A program made the translations under genes and the position numbers. Of a stretch of DNA of 64,000 nucleotides, positions 32,239 to 49,674 are shown one piece after another. The notes beneath the pieces are model-generated. The model searched no databases, was not told where the DNA came from, and saw nothing but the letters and a program-made list of their open reading frames with translations. Origin of the DNA: Gryllotalpicola protaetiae (GTDB lineage Bacteria; Actinomycetota; Actinomycetes; Actinomycetales; Microbacteriaceae); the NCBI RefSeq assembly GCF_003627055.1, contig NZ_CP032624.1, positions 434,001-498,000 on the forward strand, given 5' to 3'. The first letter of the stretch is position 1, and every line of letters begins with the position of its first letter.

Positions 32239-33414
32239 TTACGCGCGCGGCGGCGCGGCGCGATGCGTGGGACCGGCGGATGCCAGCTCGAGCACCTTCT
32301 GCAGCGAGTAGTACGCCTGCTTCGGCTGCTGGTTCACGTCGTAGATGCAGGCGTAGCCCTCGCCCGAGAAGGTGCTGGGCACCCAGGAATCCGAATCGGT
32401 CCAGCCCCAGACCGTGAACGAGATCACCTGGGGCACGGAGACCGCAGCCGACAGCATCGCCGCGTACTCGAACGGCTGTGCGAACTGGGCGAGGCTGTCG
32501 GTCGGCACCTGCGTGTCGGGGCCATCCACGAAGGTGCGCACGTCGGCTTCGGTGATGGCGATCTTGAGGCCGATTGACGCGTAGCGCTCGAGATCGCTCT
32601 GGAAGCGCTGCGGGTCGAAGCCGTACTGAGTGTCGAGATGAGCCTGGGTTCCCACTCCGTGGATCGGCACCCCGGCATCCCGCTGCTGCCTCACCCAGGC
32701 GAAGACGGCGTCACTCTTCGCGTTCGTGCCGTCCTCGCCGGTGATGTTGTAGTCGTTGTAGAACAGCAGCGCGTTCGGATCGGCCTGGTGCGCCCACTTG
32801 AACGCCTGCGGAATGATGTCGGCCCCCGCGTTCGCCACCCACCAGTTGTTCGGGTCGATGCCCGAGGGGTCGGCGTCGGTGAAGAACTCATTCGCGACAT
32901 CCCACTGCCAGATCTTGCCCTTGTACCGGCCGAGCTCGGTGAAGATGTGCTTCTCAAGGAGGCTCCACAGCTGGGTCTTCGTGATCGTGCCCGCAGCGAC
33001 ACCGTCGGTCAGCCAGGTGGGCAGCTGGTTGTGCCACAGCAGGGTGTGGCCGCGAACGAGCTGGTGGTTCGCCCGAGCGAAGGCGACGAGCTGGTCGGCA
33101 TCCGTCCAGTCATACGTGCCCTGCGTGTTGGGCTCGACCGTCTGCCACTTCATCGCGTTGGCGCCGGTCACGACCGAGAACTGGCCGCCGGAGATGCTGC
33201 CCCACTTCGTGATGTCGTCGGGTGTCAGCGCGCTGCCGATCGGCAGGTTGATCGCCGCACCGAGTGCCCGCAGCGACTGGGGGTCGCCGCTTCCGACGGG
33301 CTTCGGGCCGCGCTTGCCGGTGTCGGCGAGCGCCGGGGCCGCGGTGGCGACACCGCCCGCCAGAATCGCTGCCGCACCGACCGCGCCCATCGTGAGCACG
33401 CTTCGTCGTTCCAT
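32239..33414 (-). CDS. secreted endo-1,4-beta-xylanase, GH10
   Basis: A 391-residue xylan-cleaving enzyme. The N-terminus ERRSVLTMGAVGAAAILAGGVATAAPALAD has a twin-arginine motif, so Tat export is likely. The GH10 barrel spans about 45-375. It shows WHNQLPTWL and acid/base Glu176 in WQWDVANEFF, then LLFYNDYN, GVGTQAHL, nucleophile Glu289 in IAITEADVR and VISFTVWGWTDSDSW. No carbohydrate-binding module follows, making it a single-domain enzyme. It is divergent from the CBM9-CE15 gene across a regulatory region of about 350 bases, which suggests joint induction on glucuronoxylan. Retaining chemistry is known for the family. Confidence 0.93.
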   Translation of the reverse strand: MERRSVLTMGAVGAAAILAGGVATAAPALADTGKRGPKPVGSGDPQSLRALGAAINLPIGSALTPDDITKWGSISGGQFSVVTGANAMKWQTVEPNTQGTYDWTDADQLVAFARANHQLVRGHTLLWHNQLPTWLTDGVAAGTITKTQLWSLLEKHIFTELGRYKGKIWQWDVANEFFTDADPSGIDPNNWWVANAGADIIPQAFKWAHQADPNALLFYNDYNITGEDGTNAKSDAVFAWVRQQRDAGVPIHGVGTQAHLDTQYGFDPQRFQSDLERYASIGLKIAITEADVRTFVDGPDTQVPTDSLAQFAQPFEYAAMLSAAVSVPQVISFTVWGWTDSDSWVPSTFSGEGYACIYDVNQQPKQAYYSLQKVLELASAGPTHRAAPPRA

Positions 33415-33597: not shown

Positions 33598-33615
33598 CAA
33601 GAAAGCGATTTCTTG
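33598..33615. promoter_or_regulatory. LacI-type operator in front of the CE15 gene
   Basis: CAAGAAA-GCGA-TTTCTTG has perfect 7-bp arms and the central CG typical of LacI-family operators. It abuts the -10 box, so a bound repressor would block initiation. The LacI gene at 36.7-37.7 kb is the nearest candidate, but its own upstream palindrome has different arms. Confidence 0.55.
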
Positions 33616-33736: not shown

Positions 33737-33766
33737 AATTCGTGCGACTCAGCTATGGAGATCCGT

Positions 33767-36640
33767 GTGCGAAAACTGAACCGTTCGCTCGCTGTCGTCG
33801 TCCCCGTGGTGCTGCTCGTCGGCGTGTTCGCGCCGTCGGCATTCGCCTCGCAGGGCGCCGGGCGTGCGTACCCGTACAACCAGCCGGGTGACAAGGACTA
33901 CGTCACCAACACCAACGTCATCGAGCGGTACTCGCCCGACGCCGGGAACAACGAAAGCTACAAGGTGGTGGCGAACCGCGCCAAAGCCAATGCAGCGTTC
34001 ACCGCGAACCCGATCACCGTCGACGGCGTCAAGGACCCGGCCTGGAACCAGGCGAAGGCCTACCCGATCGGCAACAAGTTCAACGCGACGATGACCGGCG
34101 ACGACCCCGGCGCCACGGCATCCGGCACCCTCAGGGTCATGTGGGACGGGCCGGTGCTCTACGGCCTCGTCCAGGTCAGCGGGGACAGCACGGAGTCCGA
34201 CAGCGGAACGCCGAACTGGAACACCGCGAGCTACGCGCCCAACACCGACGGCATCTTCGTCTCGATGGACGTGTACAACGACCAGTGGGGCCTCGAGACC
34301 GACACCCAGGGCACGTTCTTCCTCGGGGCCAATCCGAACCTCACCTCGGTCACGTCCTTCAACAACGCGGGAATCCCCTCGCTCGGCTCGTTCTTCAACC
34401 CGGCCAACCAGGACTACTCGACGCGGCTCCAGGCCTTCAAGTCCTCGGGCTATACCGCAGGCTCCGGCGTGAATTACACCTACGAGTTCGCGCTGCAGAT
34501 CGAGGGCTGGGGCGACGACCCGAACCGAAAGATCGGCAACGGGACGCAGATCGGGCTCGAGGTCGGCAACTACGACCAGGGCAACTCGTTCACGTACTGG
34601 AGCAAGACGCAGTACTTCGCCGGCCAGGAGGCCGGCTCGAACCTGCCGAACTCCGAGCGCATCCGCAACCGCGACTGGGGCGTCGTGACGCTCAGCGGCT
34701 GGAACGGGCGCACCCCGTTCGCCTACAGCGGCTGGCCTGCCGATGAGGACATCCGGTTCTGGGACTCGAAGAGCAATCCAGGCGGCTCAGGCACGGGGCT
34801 GGAAGCCGGCGACGACGGTGATGACAGCGCCGTCTGGACACCGGCGACGAAGAACCGCATGGTCGCCGCGAAGGCTGCGTATCTGGCGCTCAAGAACAAG
34901 CCGCATGTCAGCCGGGCGCAAGAGGAAGCGGCCGTGAAGAAGGTGACAGACGCCTTCGCCGGTCTGCGCTGGGCCGACACGAAGTATCCGGATCCGAACG
35001 ATCTGCCTGAGGATCAGACCGTCCCGAGCCCGCTGACGTTCTTCGATCCGCGCAAGGGCACCAACGGCGCCGTCACCAACTCGGCACAGTGGCAGCAGCG
35101 CAAGCAAGAACTGCTCAGCCTGGCCCAGTTCTACGAGTACGGCTACAAGCCGGTGCTCGGCACGGACTACACGATCACCGTGACCGGCAACAGCTATGAC
35201 GGCACCGGCAATCCCGTTGTCACCGCCCAGGTCGTCCCGACGAACAAGAACTTCAACGGCGGCGTCCCCGTGAGCATCTCGATCCCGATCACGCTTCCCG
35301 CGTCGGTTCCCGGCGGCGGCAAGGCCGCGATCGGATTCAGCACCAACTTCACGGCCAACGGAATCGCTAACGTCACCTTCCCGTTCTGGGCGGGCGACAA
35401 TCGAACGGATGCCGGCGCTTGGGGCAATCCGAACCGTGTCGGCACCTTCTACACGCTGTTCCCGTACCAGCGGAACAGCACGTCGGCCGATTCGAGCATC
35501 CTGATCGCCAACGCGACCGCGGTCTCGGTCTACCTCGACGCGCTGCAGGCCGCGGTGGCCCAGAACCCGGCGCTCGCCGCAAAGATCGACCCGAGCCGTG
35601 CGGTGACGAAGGGGTTCTCGATCAACGGCAAGGAGGCGTTCGTCGCCGCCATCTTCGATGACCGGGTCAAGGCGGTCATCGCAGGCGGAGCGGGGGCCAC
35701 CGGGCCTGCGAACTGGCGATACAACGCGCAGGGTCAGGAATACGACTTCAGCAATACGGCGTACTACAACCCGGGAGCCGAGAAGGTCGTGTCGCATGGC
35801 ACCGAGGGTCCGGGCAACTCCTACCGCCACAACCGTGTGCGCGAGACCGAGTTGTTCCGGCACTTCATGCCGACGGGTCACATGTATGCGCACGAGGACG
35901 GGTCATACGGCTACGGCGACTACAGCAAACTGCCGTTCGACCAGGCCGACCTGGTCGCGACCCTCGCGCCTGACCGTGCGATCATCATCGATACCAACCT
36001 GAACGACTACAACGACGGAGCCACCACCGACAACATGAGCCTCGAGATCGCCAAGAGCGTGTACAACAACCTCGGGGCCGACGGTGACGACTTGGTCAAG
36101 TTCAACAGCGGGAAGTACGTCTCATCCGGCGATCCCCACGGTGCGGCGGATGCTGCGCCGGAAGGCCGCTACCTGAGCGACTTCCTCTACGGGACGAAGA
36201 CGATGACCGCAGCCGATGCCACTCAGCTCGGCACCGACCCGTACTCGTTGAAGGTCTCCAACAACCAGACGGAGAGTCCCTACGACTACTACTGGGGCGG
36301 GTACAACACGATCACCGGCGGTACCGACGGCATCAGCGGCTCGAGCGGCTGGTACTTCTCGGGCTTCGACTCCGAGGCCAAGGGACTGCGCCAGACGGTG
36401 AGCGGGTGGCGCCTTCCCGGCAACGTCCCCTCTTCGCTCGCGAAGCGGCTCGATGACGCCGTCTCGAAGTCGCATGCCGGAAACACGGCGGCGGCCATCG
36501 GGGCTCTGAACGGATTCATCGGCCAGGTACAGGGGCTGAGGGCATCCGGGCGAGTGCCTTCGGCGCAGATCGCGGCGACGGTCGCCTCGGCGGAGCAGCT
36601 CGTGCTCGAGCTCAATTCCTCAGGGAAACACCTCAGGTAG
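33767..36640 (+). CDS. secreted multidomain glucuronoyl-esterase-like protein (CBM9-FIVAR-CE15-FIMAH)
   Basis: A ~957-residue exported protein. GTG 33767 has a GGAGA Shine-Dalgarno; ATG 33755 is possible but has none. After the signal peptide (LAVVVPVVLLVGVFAPSAFAS) comes a CBM9-like domain (about 70-310; ITVDGVKDPAWNQAKAYPIG, RVMWDGPVLYGLVQV). A small FIVAR-like helical piece follows (about 355-400), then a CE15-type alpha/beta hydrolase (about 405-830) with nucleophile Ser618 in GFSINGKEAF and probable His791 in GDPHGAAD. A C-terminal FIMAH-like helix bundle (about 890-950) closes it. CE15 enzymes split lignin-glucuronoxylan esters. The nucleophile motif reads G-F-S rather than the usual G-C-S. 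Confidence 0.85.
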   Translation: MRKLNRSLAVVVPVVLLVGVFAPSAFASQGAGRAYPYNQPGDKDYVTNTNVIERYSPDAGNNESYKVVANRAKANAAFTANPITVDGVKDPAWNQAKAYPIGNKFNATMTGDDPGATASGTLRVMWDGPVLYGLVQVSGDSTESDSGTPNWNTASYAPNTDGIFVSMDVYNDQWGLETDTQGTFFLGANPNLTSVTSFNNAGIPSLGSFFNPANQDYSTRLQAFKSSGYTAGSGVNYTYEFALQIEGWGDDPNRKIGNGTQIGLEVGNYDQGNSFTYWSKTQYFAGQEAGSNLPNSERIRNRDWGVVTLSGWNGRTPFAYSGWPADEDIRFWDSKSNPGGSGTGLEAGDDGDDSAVWTPATKNRMVAAKAAYLALKNKPHVSRAQEEAAVKKVTDAFAGLRWADTKYPDPNDLPEDQTVPSPLTFFDPRKGTNGAVTNSAQWQQRKQELLSLAQFYEYGYKPVLGTDYTITVTGNSYDGTGNPVVTAQVVPTNKNFNGGVPVSISIPITLPASVPGGGKAAIGFSTNFTANGIANVTFPFWAGDNRTDAGAWGNPNRVGTFYTLFPYQRNSTSADSSILIANATAVSVYLDALQAAVAQNPALAAKIDPSRAVTKGFSINGKEAFVAAIFDDRVKAVIAGGAGATGPANWRYNAQGQEYDFSNTAYYNPGAEKVVSHGTEGPGNSYRHNRVRETELFRHFMPTGHMYAHEDGSYGYGDYSKLPFDQADLVATLAPDRAIIIDTNLNDYNDGATTDNMSLEIAKSVYNNLGADGDDLVKFNSGKYVSSGDPHGAADAAPEGRYLSDFLYGTKTMTAADATQLGTDPYSLKVSNNQTESPYDYYWGGYNTITGGTDGISGSSGWYFSGFDSEAKGLRQTVSGWRLPGNVPSSLAKRLDDAVSKSHAGNTAAAIGALNGFIGQVQGLRASGRVPSAQIAATVASAEQLVLELNSSGKHLR

Positions 36641-36655
36641 ACACCGCCGGCACAC

Positions 36656-36692
36656 GGGAGGGCCCGGCCGGATCACCCGGTCGAGCCCTCCC
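36656..36692. terminator. hairpin between the CE15 gene and the LacI gene
   Basis: GGGAGGGC (36656-36663) pairs with GCCCTCCC (36685-36692), and the loop contains further CCGG self-pairing. It begins 16 bases after the CE15 stop and overlaps the last codons of the convergent LacI gene. There is no T-run; a bidirectional structure is plausible. Confidence 0.55.
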
Positions 36693-37695
36693 TCGCGCTC
36701 GACGCCCTGATCACCAGTTCCGGCTGGAATTGCACGGCCTGCGGCTTCGCGCCGAGGTCCTCCACTTCGCTGAACAGAAGCTGCACCGCGGTCTCTCCCA
36801 TGAGCGCGGCGGGCTGCCGTACAGAGGTCAGCGGAACGATCGACGCGCTGGCGAAGTCGATGTCGTCGTAGCCGACGAACGCGATGTCGTCGGGAACACG
36901 CACTTCGCCCGATGCGGCCAGGACCTGGAGCGCGCCGATCGCGAGGAGGTCGTTCGACGCGAAGATCGCATCGGGGCGATCGGCTTCGGCACGGGCGAGA
37001 ATCCGCCGCGCCACTTCGCTGCCCGCCTGCACGGTCGACGCCGACGCCTCGATGACCTCGAGCGCCGCGCCGGGATGGGCGGCGACCGCCGAACGCGCGC
37101 CGGCGAGCCGATCGCTCACCTGCCGGAACGACGCGGGGCCGCCCAGAAAGGCGATCCGCCGACGGCCGCTCTCGAGCAGATGGTTCGCGGCGATCGAACC
37201 GCCGGCGACATCGTCGACCGAGACGGAGCTGAAGGCGGAGTCCGCCGACACTCGGTCGACGAGCACGGCGCGGGTGCCCCGCTGACGCAGCTTGTGAAGC
37301 CGCGCACTCACATCGCCGATGGGCGAGATGAGGACTCCGCGAACGCGCTGCTGCTCGAAAAGGTCGAGATAGCCGGATTCGCGGGCGCTGTCCTCGTCGC
37401 TGTTGCCGAGCACGACCGAGAAGCCGAATCGCGCCGCATAATCCTCTGCGCCCCGGGCGAGTTCCGTGAAGAACGGGTTTCGCACGTCGAGGATCAGGAG
37501 CCCGATGGCGGTGCTGCTTCCCAATCGAAGCTGGCGGGCGGCGTCATTGCGGACGAATCCGAGTTTGTCGATCGCGTCCTGAACACGCTGCAGCGTCGCC
37601 GCGGTCACCTTCTCGGGGCTGTTCAAGACGTTCGACACGGTGCCAACGGAGACGCCGGCCAGCCTTGCCACGTCTTTCACGCTCACGGTGCCCAC
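36673..37695 (-). CDS. LacI-family regulator, probably of rhamnose/xylan-side genes
   Basis: A 340-residue repressor. The N-terminal helix-turn-helix is VSVKDVARLAGVSVGTVSNVLNSPEKV, followed by the hinge helix LRLGSSTAIGLLI and a periplasmic-binding-like effector domain (about 60-335), with DAIFASNDLLAIGALQVL and VRVPDDIAFVGYDDIDFASASIVPLTSVRQP as usual for sugar-responsive members. It is divergent from the rhamnose isomerase operon, with an operator-like palindrome in the gap, so rhamnose (or a derived metabolite) is the likeliest inducer. Control of the CE15 or xylanase genes on its other side is possible. Confidence 0.88.
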   Translation of the reverse strand: MGTVSVKDVARLAGVSVGTVSNVLNSPEKVTAATLQRVQDAIDKLGFVRNDAARQLRLGSSTAIGLLILDVRNPFFTELARGAEDYAARFGFSVVLGNSDEDSARESGYLDLFEQQRVRGVLISPIGDVSARLHKLRQRGTRAVLVDRVSADSAFSSVSVDDVAGGSIAANHLLESGRRRIAFLGGPASFRQVSDRLAGARSAVAAHPGAALEVIEASASTVQAGSEVARRILARAEADRPDAIFASNDLLAIGALQVLAASGEVRVPDDIAFVGYDDIDFASASIVPLTSVRQPAALMGETAVQLLFSEVEDLGAKPQAVQFQPELVIRASSAREGSTG

Positions 37696-37806: not shown

Positions 37807-38976
37807 ATGACGAGGGCGTTCACGGAGATCGCCGACCGGCTCGCCGAGCAGGCCATCGAGCTGCCGAGCTGGGCGTTCGGCAACTCGGGCACGAGGTTCA
37901 AGGTGTTCGGGCAGGCCGGCGTGCCGCGCGACCCGTTCGAGAAGGTGACGGATGCCGCTCAGGTGCACCGGCTCACCGGGCTCTCCCCCACGGTCGCGCT
38001 CCACATCCCGTGGGACCTCGTGGACTCGTACTCCGACCTCGCCGCGCACGCCGCTGAGAACGGCGTCGCCCTCGGCACGATCAACTCGAACACCTTTCAG
38101 GACGACGACTACAAGCTGGGCAGCCTCGCGCACGGCGACGCCGCGGTGAGGCAGAAGGCGATCGACCACCACTTCCGGTGCATCGACGTCATGAACGAGA
38201 CCGGCTCGCGCGACCTGAAGATCTGGCTGGCCGACGGCACGAACTACCCGGGACAGGACGATCTGCGCGGCAGGCAGGACCGGCTCGCGGAATCCCTCGC
38301 CGCGATCTACGCCCGCATCGGCGAGAGCCAGCGCCTCGTGCTCGAGTACAAGTTCTTCGAGCCGGCGTTCTATCACACCGATGTGCCTGATTGGGGCACG
38401 AGCTACGCGCAGGTCAGCGCCCTCGGCGAGCGTGCGGTCGTCTGCCTCGACACCGGCCACCACGCGCCGGGCACGAACATCGAGTTCATCGTGATGCAGC
38501 TGCTCCGCCTCGGGAAGCTCGGCAGCTTCGACTTCAACTCGCGCTTCTACGCCGACGACGACCTGATCGTCGGGGCGGCCGACCCGTTCCAACTGTTCCG
38601 CATCCTCTTCGAGGTGGTGCGCGGCGGTGGCTACGGCGCGGGCTCCGACGTGGCGTTCATGCTCGATCAGTGCCACAACATCGAGAAGAAGATCCCCGGG
38701 CAGATCAGATCCGTGCTGAACGTGCAGGAGATGACGGCCAGGGCACTTCTTGTCGATACGGATGCCTTGGCCGCAGCCCAGCGCGCCGGCGACGTGCTCG
38801 GCGCGAACGGCGTGCTGATGGACGCCTTCTACACCGACGTGCGCCCCGCCCTGGCCGAGTGGCGGGAATCCCGCGGGCTGCCAGCCGATCCGCTGGCCGC
38901 CTATGCGGCATCCGGCTATCAGGAGAAGATCGAAGCGGAGCGCGTCGGCGGCGTGCAGGCGGGGTGGGGAGCATGA
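37807..38976 (+). CDS. rhaI: L-rhamnose isomerase (actinobacterial RhaI type)
   Basis: A 389-residue metal-dependent isomerase converting L-rhamnose to L-rhamnulose. It has the TIM-barrel isomerase pattern: HIPWDLVDSY, DLKIWLADGTNYPGQDD, LVLEYKFFEPAFYHTDVPDWG (metal Glu), VVCLDTGHHAPGTNIE (metal Asp/His) and SFDFNSRFYADDDL. This belongs to the second isomerase family (TIGR02635-like), not E. coli RhaA. A GGAG Shine-Dalgarno precedes ATG 37807. It is first in a four-gene operon with ATGA overlaps to the next gene, under the divergent LacI regulator. Confidence 0.92.
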   Translation: MTRAFTEIADRLAEQAIELPSWAFGNSGTRFKVFGQAGVPRDPFEKVTDAAQVHRLTGLSPTVALHIPWDLVDSYSDLAAHAAENGVALGTINSNTFQDDDYKLGSLAHGDAAVRQKAIDHHFRCIDVMNETGSRDLKIWLADGTNYPGQDDLRGRQDRLAESLAAIYARIGESQRLVLEYKFFEPAFYHTDVPDWGTSYAQVSALGERAVVCLDTGHHAPGTNIEFIVMQLLRLGKLGSFDFNSRFYADDDLIVGAADPFQLFRILFEVVRGGGYGAGSDVAFMLDQCHNIEKKIPGQIRSVLNVQEMTARALLVDTDALAAAQRAGDVLGANGVLMDAFYTDVRPALAEWRESRGLPADPLAAYAASGYQEKIEAERVGGVQAGWGA

Positions 38977-41021
38977 GCGCGCAGCAGGACCTGATCGCCC
39001 GGTCGAATCGTCTCGGCGCCGACCCGCGCAACACCAACTACGCCGGGGGCAACACCTCGGCGAAGGGCACCGAGATCGACCCCGTGACGGGCGAGCCGGT
39101 CGAACTGCTGTGGGTGAAGGGCTCGGGCGGCGACCTCGGCACGCTCACCGAGGCGGGACTCGCGGTGCTGCGCCTCGACCGGCTTCGCGCGCTGCAACAC
39201 GTCTATCCGGGTGTCGAGCGCGAGGACGAGATGGTCGCGGCGTTCGACTACACGCTGCACGGCAAGGGCGGCGCTGCCCCGTCGATCGACACCGCCATGC
39301 ACGGGCTGGTGGATGCCGCGCACGTCGACCATCTGCACCCGGATTCCGGCATATCCATCGCTACAGCACAGGACGGCGAGGCGCTCACCGCGCGCGCGTT
39401 CGGCGGGCGCGTGGCGTGGGTGCCGTGGCGCCGCCCGGGCTTCCAGCTGGGTCTCGACATAGCGGCGATCAAGGCCGAGAACCCCGGCGTGATCGGCGCG
39501 ATCCTCGGCGGCCACGGCATCACGGCCTGGGGCGACACCAGCGACGAGGCCGAGGCCAATTCGCTGTGGATCATCAAGACGGCAGAGGAATACATCGCGG
39601 CCCATGGGAGCGCCGAGCCGTTCGGCGGCCGACGCGACGGGTACGCGCCGCTCGAGGCATCCGCCCGCCACGCCAAGGCCGCCGCGCTCGTGCCGCACCT
39701 GCGCGCGATCGCCTCGCACGACAAGCCTCAGGTGGGCCACTTCACCGACGCGGATGCCGTGCTCGACTTCCTCGCCTCCGAGCGCCTACCCGAGCTCGCC
39801 GCCCTCGGCACGAGCTGCCCCGACCACTTCCTCCGCACGAAGGTGAAGCCCCTCGTCATCGACCTGCCGGCCGACGCGACCGTCGCCGAGATCGTGGAGC
39901 GCCTACCCGCACTGCACGAGGCGTACCGCGCCGACTACACGGCGTACTACGAGCGCGGCGCCGCCGCCGCCCGAGCGCGCGGCGAGGAGCCGCCCGCGAT
40001 GCGCGGGGCGGACCCCGCAATCATCCTCGTGCCCGGCGTCGGCATGTTCTCGTACGGCGCCGACAAGCAGACCGCGCGCGTCGCCGGCGAGTTCTACGTC
40101 AACGCGATCAACGTCATGCGCGGCGCCGAGGCGCTCTCGACCTACTCCCCCATCGATGAGGCCGAGAAATTCCGCATCGAGTACTGGGCGCTTGAGGAGG
40201 CGAAGCTCGCCCGCCGCCCGAAGCCGAAGCCGCTCGCGACGCGCATCGCGCTCGTCACGGGCGCCGCGTCCGGCATCGGCAAGGCCACAGCCACCCGACT
40301 CGCCGCCGAGGGCGCGTGCGTCGTCATCGCCGACCTCGATCCGGAGAAGGCGCAGGCTGCCGCCGCTGAGCTCGGCGGCCCCGACGTCGCCGTCGGCGTG
40401 CAGGTGAACGTCACCGACGAGGCGCAGGTGCAGCACGCGGTGGATGCCGCGCTACTCGCCTTCGGCGGCCTCGACATTGTCGTGAACAACGCGGGCCTGT
40501 CGCTGTCGAAGTCGCTGCTCGAGACGACCGTCGCCGACTGGGACCTGCAGCACAACGTGATGGCCAAGGGCTCCTTCCTCGTCTCGCGCGCCGCGGCCCG
40601 CGTGCTCATCGACCAGAAGCTCGGCGGCGACATCATCTACATCTCGTCGAAGAACTCGGTGTTCGCAGGGCCCAACAACATCGCCTACTCGGCGACCAAG
40701 GCCGACCAGGCGCACCAGGTGCGGCTGCTCGCGGCCGAGCTCGGCGAGCACGGGGTGAAGGTCAACGGCATCAACCCCGACGGGGTCGTGCGCGGCTCCG
40801 GCATCTTCGCCGGCGGCTGGGGCGCGAAACGCGCCGCGGTCTACGGCGTGCCGGAGGAGAAGCTCGGCGAGTACTACGCCCAGCGCACCCTGCTCAAGCG
40901 CGAGGTGCTGCCCGAGCACGTGGCGAATGCGGTCTTCGTGCTGTGCACAGCCGACCTCGACCACACGACCGGGTTGCACATCCCTGTCGATGCGGGTGTG
41001 GCCGCCGCATTCCTGCGATGA
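38973..41021 (+). CDS. bifunctional rhamnulose-1-phosphate aldolase/lactaldehyde dehydrogenase
   Basis: A ~682-residue fusion (TIGR02632-like). The N-terminal class II aldolase/adducin domain (about 1-400) shows NYAGGNTSAKG, TAMHGLVDAAHVDHLHPDSG (zinc His) and GGHGITAWGDT; it splits L-rhamnulose-1-phosphate into DHAP and L-lactaldehyde. The C-terminal short-chain dehydrogenase (about 420-682) shows LVTGAASGIGKAT, NNAGLSLSKS, ISSKNSV and catalytic Tyr572 in IAYSATKAD; it oxidises lactaldehyde, so the toxic aldehyde need not leave the protein. The start overlaps the isomerase stop as ATGA, and the stop overlaps the kinase start as ATGA. Confidence 0.92.
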   Translation: MSAQQDLIARSNRLGADPRNTNYAGGNTSAKGTEIDPVTGEPVELLWVKGSGGDLGTLTEAGLAVLRLDRLRALQHVYPGVEREDEMVAAFDYTLHGKGGAAPSIDTAMHGLVDAAHVDHLHPDSGISIATAQDGEALTARAFGGRVAWVPWRRPGFQLGLDIAAIKAENPGVIGAILGGHGITAWGDTSDEAEANSLWIIKTAEEYIAAHGSAEPFGGRRDGYAPLEASARHAKAAALVPHLRAIASHDKPQVGHFTDADAVLDFLASERLPELAALGTSCPDHFLRTKVKPLVIDLPADATVAEIVERLPALHEAYRADYTAYYERGAAAARARGEEPPAMRGADPAIILVPGVGMFSYGADKQTARVAGEFYVNAINVMRGAEALSTYSPIDEAEKFRIEYWALEEAKLARRPKPKPLATRIALVTGAASGIGKATATRLAAEGACVVIADLDPEKAQAAAAELGGPDVAVGVQVNVTDEAQVQHAVDAALLAFGGLDIVVNNAGLSLSKSLLETTVADWDLQHNVMAKGSFLVSRAAARVLIDQKLGGDIIYISSKNSVFAGPNNIAYSATKADQAHQVRLLAAELGEHGVKVNGINPDGVVRGSGIFAGGWGAKRAAVYGVPEEKLGEYYAQRTLLKREVLPEHVANAVFVLCTADLDHTTGLHIPVDAGVAAAFLR

Positions 41022-42448
41022 CCCCCGCCGCCCGCCTTGCCGCGATCGACCTCGGGGCGACGAGCGGTCGAGTGATCCTGGGCAGCGTCGGGCCGAACGA
41101 GCTCGAGCTGCGGCAGCTCGCGCGTTTCCCGAACGACCCGGTGCCGCTGCGCGACGGGCTGCACTGGAATCTGCTCGGGCTCTACCGCAACGCGCTCGAC
41201 GGGCTGGCGCTCGCCGTGCGGGAGGAGCCCGGGCTGGCATCCGTCGGCATCGACTCGTGGGCCGTCGACTACGCGCTGCTGCATGACGGGCGGATGTTGG
41301 GCGCGCCGTTCCATTACCGCGACCCGCGCCGCGGCGCGGTCGGGCCGCCCCTGGTGCACGAGCACGTCGACGCGGCCGAGCTCTACCGCCGCAACGGCCT
41401 GCAGCACCTGCCGTTCAACACGATGTTCCAGCTCGCCTGCGACCGGGCCGACGGCGTGCTCGACGGAGCGGACACGATGCTCCTCATCCCCGACCTGCTC
41501 GTCTTCGAGCTGACCGGCGCGATCTCCGCCGAGCGCACCAACGCCTCGACGACCGGGCTGCTCGACGCCGCGACCCGCGAATGGGACGAGGGTCTGGCTG
41601 ACACGCTCGGGATTCCGCGGCGCGTGCTGCCGCCGCTCGTCGACCCGGGCACCCGGATCGGCATGGTCAGCGGCGCGGCGCTCGAGGTCGTCGGCGCCCC
41701 CGTGCCGGTCACGGCCGTCGGGTCACATGACACCGCGAGCGCCGTGGTCGCACTGCCGACGACGAGCGACGACATCGCCTACATCTCGTGCGGCACCTGG
41801 GGGCTCGTCGGGGTCGAGCTCGCGCACCCGGTGCTGACGGATGCCGCGCGCCGAGCCTCCTTCACCAATGAGGGCGGCGTCGACGGGCGCGTCCGCTTTC
41901 TGCACAACGTCATGGGGCTGTGGCTGCTGTCGGAGTGCGTTCGGGTGTGGGGTGAGGCGCTGCCGACCTTGCTGGAGCAGGCGGCGGCTGTGCAGGCATC
42001 CGTGCCCGTCTTCGATGTCGATGACCCGCGGTTTCTCGCGCCCGGCGACATGCCCGCACGCATCGCCGACTGGCTGCGCGAGCACGAGCTGCCGGTGCCG
42101 GCCTCGCGCCCGGCGCTGGTGCGGTGCATCGTCGAGAGCCTCGCCCAGGCGTTCGCGTCGACGGTCTCCGTGGCGGCGTCACTGTCGGGCGCCGCGGTCT
42201 CCGCCATCCATCTCGTCGGCGGCGGCGCGCAGAACGCGCTGCTCTGCCAGGCGACCGCCGACCGCTCGGGGCTGCCCGTCATCGCGGGCCCGGTCGAGGC
42301 CACCGCGATCGGGAACCTGCTCGTGCAGGCACGCGCCGTCGGCGCGGCCTCAGGCTCGCTGGAGTCGTTGCGCGCACTGGTGGCGGCGACGCAGCGGCCG
42401 CAGACGTACACTCCGACCACAACGAGAAAGCCGGTCACTCATGGTTGA
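41018..42448 (+). CDS. rhaB: rhamnulokinase
   Basis: A ~476-residue FGGY-family kinase phosphorylating L-rhamnulose at C1 with ATP. The N-terminal phosphate loop is [45 protein letters not shown] is rhamnulokinase-like; the catalytic Asp region is [13 protein letters not shown]; the adenine-binding Gly motif is [25 protein letters not shown]. The start overlaps the aldolase stop as ATGA, and the gene overlaps the lactate dehydrogenase start by eight bases. Full-length with all motifs. Confidence 0.92.
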
Positions 42449-46111: not shown

Positions 46112-46123
46112 TTGAAGCGACGC

Positions 46124-47521
46124 ATGACTGAACTGACATTCCTCCGCACCCAGGGTTCCGACCTCGTCGACGAGTCGAGCGCCGTCGTGCGCCTCGCCGG
46201 CGTCGGCCTCGGCGGATGGATGAACATGGAGAACTTCATCTCGGGCTACCCCGGGAATGAGGAGGCGATCCGCGCGAAGCTGCGGCGGGCGATGGGCGAC
46301 GAGGCCTACGAGGCGTTCTTCGACGAGTATCTCGACGGCTTCATCGCCGACGAGGACGCCGCCTTCCTCGCATCCGTCGGCATCGACAGCGTGCGCATCC
46401 CGTTCAACTACCGGCACTTCGAAGACGACGCCCGGCCCTTCCAACTCAAGGAGTCGGGCTTCGCGCGGCTCGAGCGCGCGGTCGAGGTGCTTGGCCGTCA
46501 CGGCATCCGCTCGATTCTCGATCTGCATGCGCTGCCGGGGCGCCAGAACCAGCACTGGCACAGCGACAACCCGACGCACCTCGCCGAGTTCTGGAACCAC
46601 CCGCACTTCCAGGATCGAGTCGTCCACCTGTGGGAGGCCCTGGCCGACCGCTTCAAAGATCGGCCCGAGGTCGCAGGCTACAACCCGATCAACGAGCCGG
46701 CCGACCCCAGCGGTGAGGTGCTGCCCGTGTTCTACGAGAGGATCGAGAAGGCGATCAGGGCGATCGACCCACGGCACGTGCTGTTCCTCGACGGCAACAA
46801 GTACTCGACCGACTTCTCGTCGTTCGACGGTCGGCCGGCGCTGCCGAACGTGGTCTACACGGCGCACGACTACGCACTGCCCGGCATCACGAGCGCGACC
46901 GAGTACCCGGGGGTGACGCGCGGCGAGTACTTCGATCGCTCGGTGCTCGAGCAGACCTTCCTGCGCCGCACCGAGTACATGCGCCAGACAGGCACCCCGA
47001 TCTGGATCGGCGAGTTCGGGCCGGTGTACCCCGGCGGCGTCACGCAGGAATGGCGGCTGCAACTGCTGCAGGATCAGCTCGACATCTACCACGACCACGG
47101 CGCGAGCTGGGCACTGTGGACCTACAAGGACATCGGCCTGCAGGGCCTCGTCACAGTCTCCCCCGATTCCGACTATCTGCGACTGATCGCACCCGATCTG
47201 GCGACCAAGGAGCAGTTGGGCACGGATTCCTGGGGCGGGTCGGATGTCGGCGTACGAGACATCCTCGACCCCATCGACGCGGTCTTCGACCGCGAGTTCC
47301 CTGACTTCGCGCCGTACCCGTGGGGCCGGAAGCCGCACCTCGCGGTGCTCGTGCGGCACATCCTCCTCGCCGAGCCGCTGGCCGACCGCTTCGCGTCGCG
47401 GTTCGCGGGCGTGTCTGTCGAGCGGGCGCGACAGCTGGCGTCCGCGTTCCGCTTCGCGAGCACCGAGGTGCGCACCCCTCTCGTCGAGCTGCTGCAGGCC
47501 CACCTGCGCGCATCGCGGTAG
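46124..47521 (+). CDS. cytoplasmic GH5 glycoside hydrolase
   Basis: A ~465-residue clan-A beta/alpha-barrel enzyme. LAGVGLGGWMNMENFISGYPG begins the barrel; SVRIPFNYRHF, ILDLHALPGRQNQHWHSDN, then acid/base Glu191 in GYNPINEPADP, VVYTAHDY and nucleophile Glu297 in PIWIGEFGPVYPGG follow. No signal peptide is present, so it acts on imported oligosaccharides or glycosides. A C-terminal ~100-residue helical tail (VRHILLAEPLADRFASRF) lies outside the barrel. The start is ATG 46124; an in-frame TTG at 46112 is the alternative, both with weak Shine-Dalgarno. Specificity is unknown (beta-glucan, beta-glucosidase-like or mannosyl substrates occur in GH5). Confidence 0.85.
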   Translation: MTELTFLRTQGSDLVDESSAVVRLAGVGLGGWMNMENFISGYPGNEEAIRAKLRRAMGDEAYEAFFDEYLDGFIADEDAAFLASVGIDSVRIPFNYRHFEDDARPFQLKESGFARLERAVEVLGRHGIRSILDLHALPGRQNQHWHSDNPTHLAEFWNHPHFQDRVVHLWEALADRFKDRPEVAGYNPINEPADPSGEVLPVFYERIEKAIRAIDPRHVLFLDGNKYSTDFSSFDGRPALPNVVYTAHDYALPGITSATEYPGVTRGEYFDRSVLEQTFLRRTEYMRQTGTPIWIGEFGPVYPGGVTQEWRLQLLQDQLDIYHDHGASWALWTYKDIGLQGLVTVSPDSDYLRLIAPDLATKEQLGTDSWGGSDVGVRDILDPIDAVFDREFPDFAPYPWGRKPHLAVLVRHILLAEPLADRFASRFAGVSVERARQLASAFRFASTEVRTPLVELLQAHLRASR

Positions 47522-47625: not shown

Positions 47626-49674
47626 CTACGGCAGGGGCGTGATGCCCTCCCACACAGGGTGCCAGCCCGCCCCGAAGCCGGGGCGCGGCGCCGAGCCGTC
47701 GTGGCCGGCGGCCATGAGGCCCGTCGCCAGCAGCAGGCCGCCGTTGCCGGGCAGGTAGATCGGCAGCGAGGCATCCTGCCGGTTGTGGCCGTTGCGCAGG
47801 TAGGTGTTCTTCGGCACATCGAGCAGCAGCGCGTCGACCGCGAGCTCCGGCTCGCCGAGACGGGTCGCGGTCATCGCCGCCATGGGGAAGTCCCAGCCCC
47901 AGGCGGTCGGCCAGTCCCAGTCGGCGAGGGCGTCGCGGAGCGTCCGCCGCATCGTCGCGCGGTCGACGAGGGCGGTCTGCGGCACGACTCCGAGGGCGGC
48001 GAGCATGCTGGGGTGGTCGGTGCGCATGAGATACGGCGGCGAGCCGAGCGCCGCGTAGGTCCCCGTCTCGAGCACGGGCGGCGGGGCCATGCCGCGCGAG
48101 ACCTCGCGCCAGCGCGGCGGCGGCGTACGCCCGAGTCGCTCGAGCCACTGCGCGGCGACCTCGAGCGCCCACGACCAGTACGCGAGCTCGAAGGTCGGAT
48201 TCCTGTTGGTGGCGCGGCCCGCGTCGTAGGACTCCTGCGCAGGGATGATCGGTGGGCCCAGCTCGAAACCACCGGCGCCGGGGGTCGGGAATGCCGCCAT
48301 GAACTCGGCCGTCGCGACGACGACGTCGGCCCAGCGCTCGATCACCTCGCGCGACGGTGCCGCGCGGTACAGCAGCTCGGCGAGATGGATCGGGTGCGGC
48401 TGCTGCCACGCAAGGAACGGCCCGATGGGGCTCGGTGCCTCGATGCCGTCCGGCCCGATCTGCTTCGGCCAGCGCGCACCGGGGAGGCCTTGACCACGGG
48501 CCGTCTCACGCGCACGCCCGAGCACGGTCGGGTACCAGGCGAGCGAGCGCTCCAGCAGCTCGGGCCTGCCCCACTGCGGCAGCCAGCCGTGGTGCCACCA
48601 GTGCATCTCGAGGTGGAACTTGCCCCGCCACGAATTGAGCATCAGCCCGGTCTCGGCCGGCGGCAGCGACCCGGCCGACAGCGCGGACAGGTACTGCGAC
48701 AGCACCACCCGCCGCTCCAGCTCGAAGGCTCGCGGGTCGTCGCTGTCGGCCAGCTCGAGCGCGCCACCCGAATTCCAGAACCGATCCCAGTGCGCAGCGG
48801 CGGCAGCGAACACGAGGGATGCCTGAAGCTGCCCGTTCGCTTCGCCCGCCTCGCCGCGATGGAACTCGACCACGGCCTCAAGCCGCCCGCCGGCCGCGCG
48901 GAGCAGGAACTCATGAGTACCGACGCGCTCGAACCGCGCGCCGGGCGCGGTGATCGACACGGAGTACGAGAACTCGTGCAGCCGGCGACGCACACGCCAT
49001 CCGGCATCCGTCTCTTCGAGCTCGCTCGTGTGCGCCTCTGGCCGCGACCAGTCGGCCGCGTTCGCCCATGCCTCGGACCCCGCGGGAAACGCGAGCCGCA
49101 GCCCGACCTCGCCGGTGCCGTCGATCGACACCGCCAGCGCGTCACGCACGGGGTGCACCGCGGTACGGGTCGCGAAGGCACGGTCGCCCAGCCGGAAACG
49201 GCTGGTGATGGTGCCGGTCAGCAGCTCCAGGCGCTGCGCGACGTGGGACAGGGCGGATGCCTGAACCGGCTCGTCCCCCGCCCACAGCCCCACCCGGCCG
49301 AGATCGAGGCGGTGCGGGTTGTTCCGCAGCCACTCCTCCTCGCGGGACTGGCCGGCCGAGGCATCCGCCCCGAAAGACCCGCCGAGGTCTGCGTACAGAG
49401 CCGGGCCGTGCGGGCTGTCGTAGGTGCGCAGCTGCGGTTCGAGCGGCACTCGCCCGGGCGACGAGTCCCACCCCCAGTGCGACATCGTGCCGAGCAGCGT
49501 GCCCGGCGCGTCGCCGTACCGGGCGGCCACCGGGTACGCCTCTGGGAAGGTCTGCAGCCCCGTCACGTCGACGGTGACGCAGAACTCGCCGTTCCCGACG
49601 GAGAGCGGGGAATCGGGAACGAGCTGGTCGAGCAGCACACTGTGCCGCCCGACCAGCTCGGTTCTGTTGATCAC
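47626..49674 (-). CDS. (alpha/alpha)6 six-hairpin glycosidase-like protein, specificity unknown
   Basis: A 682-residue protein without signal peptide. The N-terminal beta-sandwich (about 1-280) opens LVPDSPLSVGNGEFCVTVDVTGLQTFPEAY, as in GH65/GH95-type enzymes. The C-terminal helical barrel (about 300-680) has MLNSWRGKFHLEMHWWHHGWLPQWGRPELLERSLAWY, GARWPKQIGPDG, NPTFELAYWSWALEVAAQWLERLG and TAWGWDFPMAAMTATRLGEPELAVDALL. The repeated acid/Trp loops suggest an inverting or phosphorylytic active site; FHLEMHWWH probably holds a catalytic acid. It follows the sugar-binding-protein gene by 15 bases, starting at GTG 49674, so it probably processes the imported sugar. I do not assign a family number. 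Confidence 0.65.
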   Translation of the reverse strand: MINRTELVGRHSVLLDQLVPDSPLSVGNGEFCVTVDVTGLQTFPEAYPVAARYGDAPGTLLGTMSHWGWDSSPGRVPLEPQLRTYDSPHGPALYADLGGSFGADASAGQSREEEWLRNNPHRLDLGRVGLWAGDEPVQASALSHVAQRLELLTGTITSRFRLGDRAFATRTAVHPVRDALAVSIDGTGEVGLRLAFPAGSEAWANAADWSRPEAHTSELEETDAGWRVRRRLHEFSYSVSITAPGARFERVGTHEFLLRAAGGRLEAVVEFHRGEAGEANGQLQASLVFAAAAAHWDRFWNSGGALELADSDDPRAFELERRVVLSQYLSALSAGSLPPAETGLMLNSWRGKFHLEMHWWHHGWLPQWGRPELLERSLAWYPTVLGRARETARGQGLPGARWPKQIGPDGIEAPSPIGPFLAWQQPHPIHLAELLYRAAPSREVIERWADVVVATAEFMAAFPTPGAGGFELGPPIIPAQESYDAGRATNRNPTFELAYWSWALEVAAQWLERLGRTPPPRWREVSRGMAPPPVLETGTYAALGSPPYLMRTDHPSMLAALGVVPQTALVDRATMRRTLRDALADWDWPTAWGWDFPMAAMTATRLGEPELAVDALLLDVPKNTYLRNGHNRQDASLPIYLPGNGGLLLATGLMAAGHDGSAPRPGFGAGWHPVWEGITPLP

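Follow-up and report, generated by a model that had tools for sequence, protein, structure and literature searches.

The 64,000-nucleotide stretch of the Gryllotalpicola protaetiae genome analysed here (the window) carries at 33767–36640 (+), by its open reading frame and Pfam matches, a gene for a CE15-like secreted multidomain protein from a clade in which isoleucine replaces the arginine that follows the nucleophilic serine. On balance, alignment favours a secreted CE15-family serine esterase of this Ile-elbow clade that would de-esterify cell-wall uronic acids, with Arg550 standing in for the elbow Arg. Since Ser622, Lys626, Glu699, Asp751 and His795 are all kept, the protein probably still hydrolyses uronoyl esters, though with a changed specificity. 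The oxyanion Arg and the substrate Trp of characterised bacterial glucuronoyl esterases are both replaced (Ile623, Asn753), and for that reason it is not called a glucuronoyl esterase (EC 3.1.1.117).

The open reading frame list of the window gives 961 aa from an ATG at 33755 to 36640 (+), and residues are numbered here from that ATG, so that the catalytic Ser618 and His791 of an initial annotation become Ser622 and His795. A GTG at 33767, the start used in that annotation, gives 957 aa with the same end and is the likelier start, as a GGAG (33757–33760) lies 6 nt before it, with ATG 33755 also possible; a comparable GGAG-to-start spacing was seen by eye in L002, L005 and L007. A probable Sec signal peptide (33767–33850, +) was recognised by eye from its basic start, hydrophobic stretch and AxA. 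Next comes a CBM9-like domain (residues 89–279; 34019–34591, +), for which Pfam CBM9_1 scored 36.4 bits against a cut-off of 23.4 (E 6.5e-9), in agreement with the initial annotation, and which is present in six of seven scanned relatives (P0002–P0006 and P0008). CBM9 modules feature a ligand-binding Trp sandwich and bind reducing ends. Residues 363–402 (34841–34960, +) are modelled as a two-helix hairpin linker; it had been taken for FIVAR, a reading that fell away, as the Pfam search of the window protein gave no FIVAR match at E ≤ 1. The C-terminal FIMAH-like bundle (residues 871–956; 36365–36622, +) is modelled as four helices (pLDDT in blocks of 76–89, dropping to 60 at the end), with Pfam FIMAH at 13.5 bits against a cut-off of 24.8. 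FIMAH scores in relatives P0002, P0004 and P0005 (16.1, 20.6 and 19.8 bits) were all below the cut-off too, and the other four scanned relatives had no match at E ≤ 0.1. Structure matches of the bundle (Z about 12, e.g., 7nsn) were discounted as chance level for helical bundles.

The catalytic part is a CE15 alpha/beta-hydrolase domain (residues 421–831; 35015–36247, +), identified by Pfam and by sequence and structure matches. Pfam GCE_fung/CE15 (PF22244) scored 76.5 bits against a cut-off of 27 (E 3.7e-21), bearing out the family assignment first made from the sequence, and all seven scanned relatives passed the same cut-off. Structure prediction, the fold half of a refuting check that the initial annotation had itself proposed, did not refute it and returned an alpha/beta-hydrolase of the CE15 type: when the first of two AlphaFold models was compared with the PDB, the best 32 of 50 listed entries were all CE15 (Z 24.3 to 19.4), and the next match after the CE15 entries was the BT1017 methylesterase (Z 14.7). 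The mean pLDDT of that first model was only 50, and both models fell below 50 in the active-site loops, nucleophile elbow included, so the triad is taken from the alignment. The best fold match (Z 24.3) was RfCE15, the CE15 domain of Ruminococcus flavefaciens CesA (8tse), which resembles the window protein in lacking a disulphide and in carrying its acid on a later loop (RfCE15 Glu677), but keeps the Arg in GxSRxGK and is 26% identical. The best sequence match (E 2.9e-36) was CkXyn10C-GE15A of Caldicellulosiruptor (7nn3), with which the window protein shares a GFS elbow without Cys, the absence of disulphides and CBM9 modules beside CE15 in one protein; unlike the window protein, it has Arg after Ser (GFSRYGK) and a GH10 xylanase fusion, at 28% identity.

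The elbow itself, GFSINGK, was read where it had been reported, at residues 620–626 (Ser622, Ile623, Lys626; 35612–35632, +). It matches GxSRxGK at Gly, Ser, Gly and Lys and departs from it in having Ile for Arg; alignment places Ile623 and Lys626 at the positions of Arg268 and Lys271 in OtCE15A (6syr and others; numbering counted on 6syr_A). Since GFSI[NG]GK recurs in all nine homologous loci found, neither chance nor a sequencing slip accounts for it. The missing Arg proved a sound point of interest: the residue after Ser was Ile in 10/10 clade domains, and Arg in 41/43 and Tyr in 2/43 of the other CE15 domains. This tally comes from 63 loci (10 clade, 43 others and 10 weak PF22244 loci with E > 1e-20 that were left out, two with GHSLGGK and eight without an accepted motif, including L038 with GSSRNGR). 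L013 and L042 were excluded as second matches of proteins already counted, and L054 was counted as Arg, its correct frame reading GHSRLGK; of 21 matched rows without a locus, two are L023 and L024, one is a second L070 stretch, and 18 lie outside the tally. PMC11096219 describes the Arg side chain beside Ser as a feature that CE15 shares with no other alpha/beta-hydrolases. Its loss is no bar to membership, as OtCE15B and PrCE15, accepted members, are natural CE15s without the elbow Arg, though with Tyr after Ser, not Ile.

The Cys fared differently. The residue before Ser in the 22 other aligned domains, hand-picked from the 43, was His in nine, Val in eight, Cys in three, Phe in one and Ala in one, which does not fit the initial annotation's GCSRxGK as the usual bacterial elbow. 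The missing Cys, which it had also thought odd, is normal for CE15s with the other acid position, as in RfCE15 and CkGE15A, both without a disulphide; the whole window protein contains no Cys. By these alignments, Cys absence is ordinary for CE15, whereas Arg absence is not.

In a tree of nine clade and 22 other rows, the Ile clade formed one group (support 100/100) on a long branch (1.42), with L070 (elbow GFSRCGK) as the nearest outgroup. Its records are actinobacterial, clostridial and acidobacterial, and the homologues are 37–88% identical to the window protein. The Ser-His-acid triad is present by alignment: Ser622 and His795 (36137–36139, +; for His408), the catalytic pair of the initial annotation, occur in 31/31 rows. 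Lys626 and Glu699 (35849–35851, +; aligned with OtCE15A Glu305) are likewise found in 9/9 clade and 22/22 other domains, and Asp751, matched to Asp356 as the probable triad acid, in 9/9 and 17/22. Asp751 is followed by Tyr752 and by Asn753, which replaces Trp358 (the three at 36005–36013, +). OtCE15A thus has equivalents of Ser267, His408, Asp356, Lys271 and Glu305 in the window protein, and differs from it at Arg268/Ile623, Asp207/Arg550, Trp358/Asn753 and Glu290/Gly645. The loss of the Trp358 equivalent and the adjoining rhamnose catabolism genes described below had no place in the initial annotation.

The Arg loss is paired with a second change. Arg550 (35402–35404, +) occupies the position of OtCE15A Asp207, which clamps Arg268 according to PMC6937553, where the roles of Arg268, Lys271, Glu305 (a uronate O2/O3 ligand) and Trp358 are also described; the role of Arg268 is further described in PMC8933493. 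Read by an ungapped offset of 14 from a conserved strand Gly, the clamp residue was Asp in 41/41 Arg-bearing domains, Arg in 10/10 Ile-bearing domains, and Pro and Tyr in the two Tyr-bearing domains (L047 and L048, neither being OtCE15B or PrCE15); L069, which lacks the script motif and so stood outside the alignment, was included in these comparisons. Column placement of Arg550 is aligner-dependent: in two of three MAFFT modes other residues stand in its column, and MAFFT L-INS-i places an Arg there for one of the two Tyr domains as well. The Arg-to-Ile/Asp-to-Arg swap happened once on the tree. The pairing of Arg with Asp is not universal, since fungal CE15s keep the Arg with Gln at the clamp (PMC6937553). 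The clade-wide coupling of the Arg loss to the Asp-to-Arg change is an addition to what the initial annotation contained.

The swap seems to be a relocated guanidinium. Ser622 would attack the ester, with the triad completed by His795 and Asp751, the uronate hydroxyls held by Lys626 and Glu699, and the backbone part of the oxyanion hole, the NH of residue 623, kept; Arg550, on the loop that bears the Asp clamp in other bacterial CE15s, may supply the guanidinium or position the substrate instead. The enzyme would strip methyl, lignin-type or other alcohols from uronic acids in a glycan of the plant cell wall, to which the CBM9-like and helical domains may tether it. As the clade lost the Arg, kept the other machinery and changed the clamp in step, it offers a natural swap in which the role of the guanidinium can be probed.

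A rather improbable alternative is an ordinary glucuronoyl esterase acting on esters between lignin and glucuronoxylan, in which Ile arose by neutral drift, the backbone NH is enough and Arg550 is non-catalytic. The GH10 xylanase-like divergent neighbour found by profile search (32239–33414, −), the joint occurrence of CBM9 and CE15 in CkXyn10C-GE15A, and PrCE15, whose activity on BnzGlcA is close to that of RfCE15 despite Tyr at the elbow, would suit it. However, Tyr-bearing OtCE15B is crippled, and in the R268A variant of OtCE15A, assayed on MeGlcA, kcat dropped about 90-fold and kcat/Km 12-fold while the acyl-enzyme accumulated (PMC8933493). Drift also poorly explains the invariance of Ile623 and Arg550 in 10/10 sequences at identities down to 37%, and the Trp358 equivalent is lost as well.

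That both Arg268 and Trp358, central to oxyanion stabilisation and glucuronate recognition, are replaced would also accord with a CE15 fold whose reaction has changed, for instance to that of a transferase or of an acetyl or other esterase, with a rhamnose-containing glycan as the substrate. The long clade branch and the inactivity of some CE15s with seemingly competent sites on model substrates (PMC10807430) speak for this, but the Ser, His and Asp of the triad do not vary, nor do the uronate-binding Lys626 and Glu699, and such a change is unlikely. Very unlikely is a catalytically dead carbohydrate-binding relic, which the missing Arg and two of the nine homologue records with a broken gene (frameshifts in L007, a single in-frame TAA in L009) might suggest; against it, the triad and sugar-binding residues are invariant among the homologues despite their divergence, and a putative operator is kept 5' of the gene in five loci. 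That LacI-type operator-like palindrome, GAAAGCGATTTC, lies between the divergent GH10 and CE15 genes (33601–33612, +) and matches GAAANCGNTTTC exactly; equivalents in L002, L003, L004 and L007 bring the count to five of six actinobacterial loci including the window, L005 being the exception.

For the esterase with Arg550 in place of the elbow Arg, the neighbouring genes bear on the substrate. Downstream lie a LacI-family regulator (36673–37695, −; profile search), a Gram-positive-type L-rhamnose isomerase, RhaI (37807–38976, +; TIGR02635, 639 bits against a cut-off of 531), a bifunctional rhamnulose-1-P aldolase/dehydrogenase (38973–41021, +; TIGR02632, 994 against 568) and a rhamnulokinase-like FGGY kinase (41018–42448, +; TIGR02627, 403 bits, below the cut-off of 528). 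L-rhamnose catabolism genes adjoin the CE15 gene in three of ten loci (window, L003 and L009), about two independent cases, as the window and L003 share one arrangement. Rhamnose isomerase was found in 9/10 clade genomes at E ≤ 1e-20 (7/10 above the curated cut-off) and in 5/14 control genomes, a set not matched to the clade genomes. A rhamnose/pectin context is shared with PvCE15 (8qcl; 24% identical over the aligned part), PdCE15 and PiCE15A, which differ in being from Bacteroidota, as proteins active on model uronate esters, and in that their pectin-type PULs hold rhamnosidases and pectinases (GH106, GH78, GH28, PL11), whereas the window holds rhamnose catabolism genes. GH4 genes, of which one is close to a solved alpha-galacturonidase, were found directly upstream in L006 and some 8 kb downstream in L009. 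Besides the GH10 gene of the window, neighbours of the xylan type are seen in the L009 genome, where GH67, GH3 and a SASA esterase lie about 17–23 kb downstream; the GH67, at about 17 kb, would suit an ordinary glucuronoyl esterase. GH67, GH115 and GH78, however, were not found in the window genome by profile search at E ≤ 1e-5. Glucuronoxylan as sole target (GH67 in 4/10 and GH115 in 2/10 clade genomes) and pectin as sole target (GH78 in 7/10) were each considered, and these counts decide neither.

The rhamnose genes hint at a rhamnose/galacturonate glycan rather than plain glucuronoxylan. Asn753 for Trp358 suggests that the uronate has other sugars around it, which probably include rhamnose and galacturonate; candidates would be the Xyl-Rha-GalA-Xyl sequence at the reducing end of glucuronoxylan, or side chains of the pectic RG type or of arabinogalactan. 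A CE15 subfamily with its oxyanion guanidinium moved to the opposite loop and a new specificity for uronoyl esters of rhamnose/galacturonate glycans is put forward tentatively, as a conjecture with the odds against it, and its target may possibly be that reducing end, for which we know of no esterase. The clade also bears on an open question, the substrates of CE15 enzymes that are encoded elsewhere than in xylan loci (PMC10807430). In the text returned by word searches of open PMC, neither an Ile-elbow CE15 nor a link between CE15 and rhamnose isomerase was named.

Further clade members were sought in other collections. No clade member was confirmed in the viral contigs searched, and searches of 297 genomes from the same order (E ≤ 1e-20) and 396 from the same phylum (E ≤ 1e-10), two samples that overlap, gave the organism's own genome as the sole match. 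The plasmid search returned two distant Hymenobacter matches, 24% identical over the CE15 part.

A single open reading frame at 33755-36640 on the plus strand of the window encodes a protein of 961 amino acids, with the GTG at 33767, which is preceded by GGAG, being a likelier start for the CE15 gene than the ATG at 33755 from which residues are numbered here. Behind a signal-like N-terminus come a CBM9-like domain (residues 89-279), a helical hairpin, the CE15 catalytic domain (residues about 421-831), a conserved tail that ends in GWY at 865-867 and a four-helix bundle (residues 871-956) that ends the protein. The CE15 and CBM9 domains proposed in the initial annotation were borne out by a profile search, both scoring above their Pfam cut-offs; the FIVAR domain placed between them was absent from the Pfam results, and the C-terminal bundle, read as FIMAH, scored under the Pfam cut-off. 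The protein has no cysteines. Its closest solved relatives in a search against PDB sequences are CkGE15A (7nn3, E 2.9e-36) and RfCE15 (8tse, 4.2e-26), and for its predicted model, a weak one (mean pLDDT 50), CE15 structures rank above all other listed matches. The window protein has the CE15 fold and belongs to the CE15 sequence family, and the label "glucuronoyl esterase" should not be attached to it pending assay.

Six peptide patterns scanned against the GTDB species genomes gave nine loci homologous to the window CE15 gene, which by record title are four Actinomycetales/Demequina MAGs, Pseudolysinimonas kribbensis, a Hungateiclostridiaceae MAG, two Lachnospiraceae and an Acidobacteria MAG. 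The elbow GFSI[NG]GK is found in all ten sequences, and this CE15 variant is real and clade-wide; we found no published description of it. Nine of the ten were included in a 31-row tree, the broken P. kribbensis copy (L018) being left out, and formed one group (support 100/100, branch 1.42). The neighbour of this group, L070 from the Acidobacteria sample, has the elbow GFSRCGK and, ahead of its CE15 domain, a CBM9 for which the solved CBM9-type chain 1i82 is a match (E 1.2e-15); the CBM9-CE15 pairing therefore probably predates the Arg loss. The C-terminus differs among the relatives: actinobacterial loci L002-L005 carry two or three CBM5/12 modules past the helical bundle, the Hungateiclostridiaceae relative has added SLH domains, and the window protein terminates at the bundle without CBM5/12 modules. 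Among 297 same-order and 396 same-phylum genomes there was no match outside the window's own genome, and PF22244 was found in two of 296 phylum-sample genomes, that same genome and a weak one (9.9e-6). Transfer or mis-binning is possible for the copies in the clostridial and acidobacterial MAGs, given their 65-70% identity with the window protein. In the deposited record of P. kribbensis NBRC 108894 the CE15 gene (L007:10001-12868) is split by frameshifts, either an assembly error or a pseudogene, and the homologue in Lachnospiraceae bacterium G11 (L009:11102-12946) is interrupted by one in-frame TAA.

In OtCE15A, the oxyanion hole draws on both the backbone NH and the guanidinium of Arg268, the residue after Ser267, and Asp207 locks this Arg in place (PMC6937553). 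In the R268A mutant acyl-enzyme builds up, and kcat on MeGlcA is 0.214 per s, down from 19.0 (PMC8933493). Tyr takes the place of this Arg in OtCE15B, described as crippled (PMC6069808), and also in PrCE15 and 26 of 35 gut-fungal sequences (PMC11345330); PrCE15 is active. The residue after Ser was Arg in 41, Tyr in two and Ile in none of 43 other CE15 domains, collected at PF22244 E<=1e-20 from the phylum samples around genomes G686 (13) and G690 (28) and from G690 itself (2), a set without Bacteroidota, Verrucomicrobia and fungi. The clamp position was located by counting 14 residues, ungapped, from the conserved Gly with which the preceding strand begins, a count that falls on Asp207 in OtCE15A. 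All 41 domains with Arg after Ser have Asp at this position and all 10 with Ile have Arg; of the two with Tyr, one has Pro there and the other Tyr. By this tally and the OtCE15A count, the clamp residue (Asp to Arg) and the residue it held (Arg to Ile) have changed in concert. The pairing was reproduced by G-INS-i but not by L-INS-i or E-INS-i, and with L-INS-i one Tyr domain also shows Arg in the clamp column, contrary to the pairing. Fungal CE15s, with Arg and a Gln at the clamp, likewise run contrary to a strict rule (PMC6937553). The swap is one event on the tree, related sequences not being independent events, and the role of Arg550 in the window protein is one that we infer.

As for the rest of the active site, the alignment has Ser267, Lys271, Glu305 and His408 of OtCE15A kept in 9/9 clade and 22/22 other sequences, and Asp356 in 9/9 and 17/22. 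Trp358, a Trp in 19 of the 22, corresponds to Asn753 in the clade, and where OtCE15A has Glu290 the window protein has Gly645 (eight of the ten members have Gly here, two Ala). As described for OtCE15A, Glu305 and Lys271 bind the uronate O2-O4, while Trp358 contacts O2 and packs on the xylooligosaccharide (PMC6937553). The picture drawn from these residues would be of a working uronate pocket with an altered oxyanion side and sugar platform, from which we infer catalysis by the window protein.

On the 3' side of the window CE15 gene lie a LacI regulator (opposite strand), RhaI, a RhaD-dehydrogenase and a rhamnulokinase-like gene, and this order is found again in L003, an actinobacterial locus (RhaI 81% and RhaD 75% identical), with the LacI gene there on the other strand. 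L009 has a different set of genes (rhamnulokinase-like, tagaturonate reductase, a galactarate/altronate dehydratase-family gene, RhaA and RhaD) that ends directly upstream of the CE15 gene, with a GH43 following the latter. Just upstream of CE15 in the homologous locus L006 are a GH43 related to that of L009 (49%) and a GH4 whose sequence is close to that of alpha-galacturonidase 3fef (E 2.7e-139). About 8 kb downstream of the L009 CE15 gene lies another GH4, which shares 60% identity with the L006 one. Rhamnose isomerase adjoins the CE15 gene in 3/10 loci; among the remaining seven, L004, L005, L008 and L010 run into a contig end near the gene. Since the window and L003 may be a single inherited case, two independent associations are counted. 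Anywhere in the genome, the isomerase is present in 9/10 clade genomes at E<=1e-20 (7/10 over the curated cut-off), compared with 5/14 control genomes, a set unmatched to the clade genomes; in P. kribbensis it is about 40 kb from the CE15 gene. The genome of L003 has two over-cut-off isomerase genes, one beside CE15 and the other with a GH78 rhamnosidase some 4 kb away. Signs of a xylan type are a GH10 divergent to the window CE15 gene and, in the L009 genome, a mannonate dehydratase, GH67, SASA esterase and GH3 about 15-23 kb downstream of CE15. A glucuronoxylan terminus has been described as Xyl-Rha-GalA-Xyl (PMC6397879), and such an end would reconcile the rhamnose-type and xylan-type neighbours. 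For pectin-linked CE15s, one account proposes side-chain uronate esters of rhamnogalacturonans as the target and describes tests on pectin backbones in which activity was not found (PMC10807430). Any substrate assigned to the window protein on such grounds would be putative.

The exact LacI-type palindrome GAAAGCGATTTC, which is operator-like, is located 155-166 nt 5' of the GTG start. GAAAGCGGTTTC stands ahead of the CE15 gene in L002, L003, L004 and L007 and is not ahead of it in L005; a search of the four non-actinobacterial loci turned up neither GAAAGCGATTTC nor GAAAGCGGTTTC. The window holds four sites of the form GAAANCGNTTTC, at 33601, 45055, 51080 and 52217, all exact, against 0.71 expected in shuffles with up to one mismatch allowed, and the adjacent LacI protein is their putative binder.

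Two further window genes have counterparts at related loci. A GH5 at 46112-47521 (+), nearest to PDB entry 9ku5 "putative beta-xylosidase GE32" (E 8.6e-95), has a 76% homologue about 2.5 kb 3' of the CE15 gene in L002. The 682-aa protein encoded at 47626-49674 (-) has no Pfam, NCBIfam or PDB matches; its homologue in L009 (17688-19730; 34% identity across 718 aa) shows a faint GH65 N-terminal match, and both genes lie 3' of an ABC sugar-binding-protein gene on the same strand. It is possibly an undescribed glycoside hydrolase tied to the CE15/rhamnose context.
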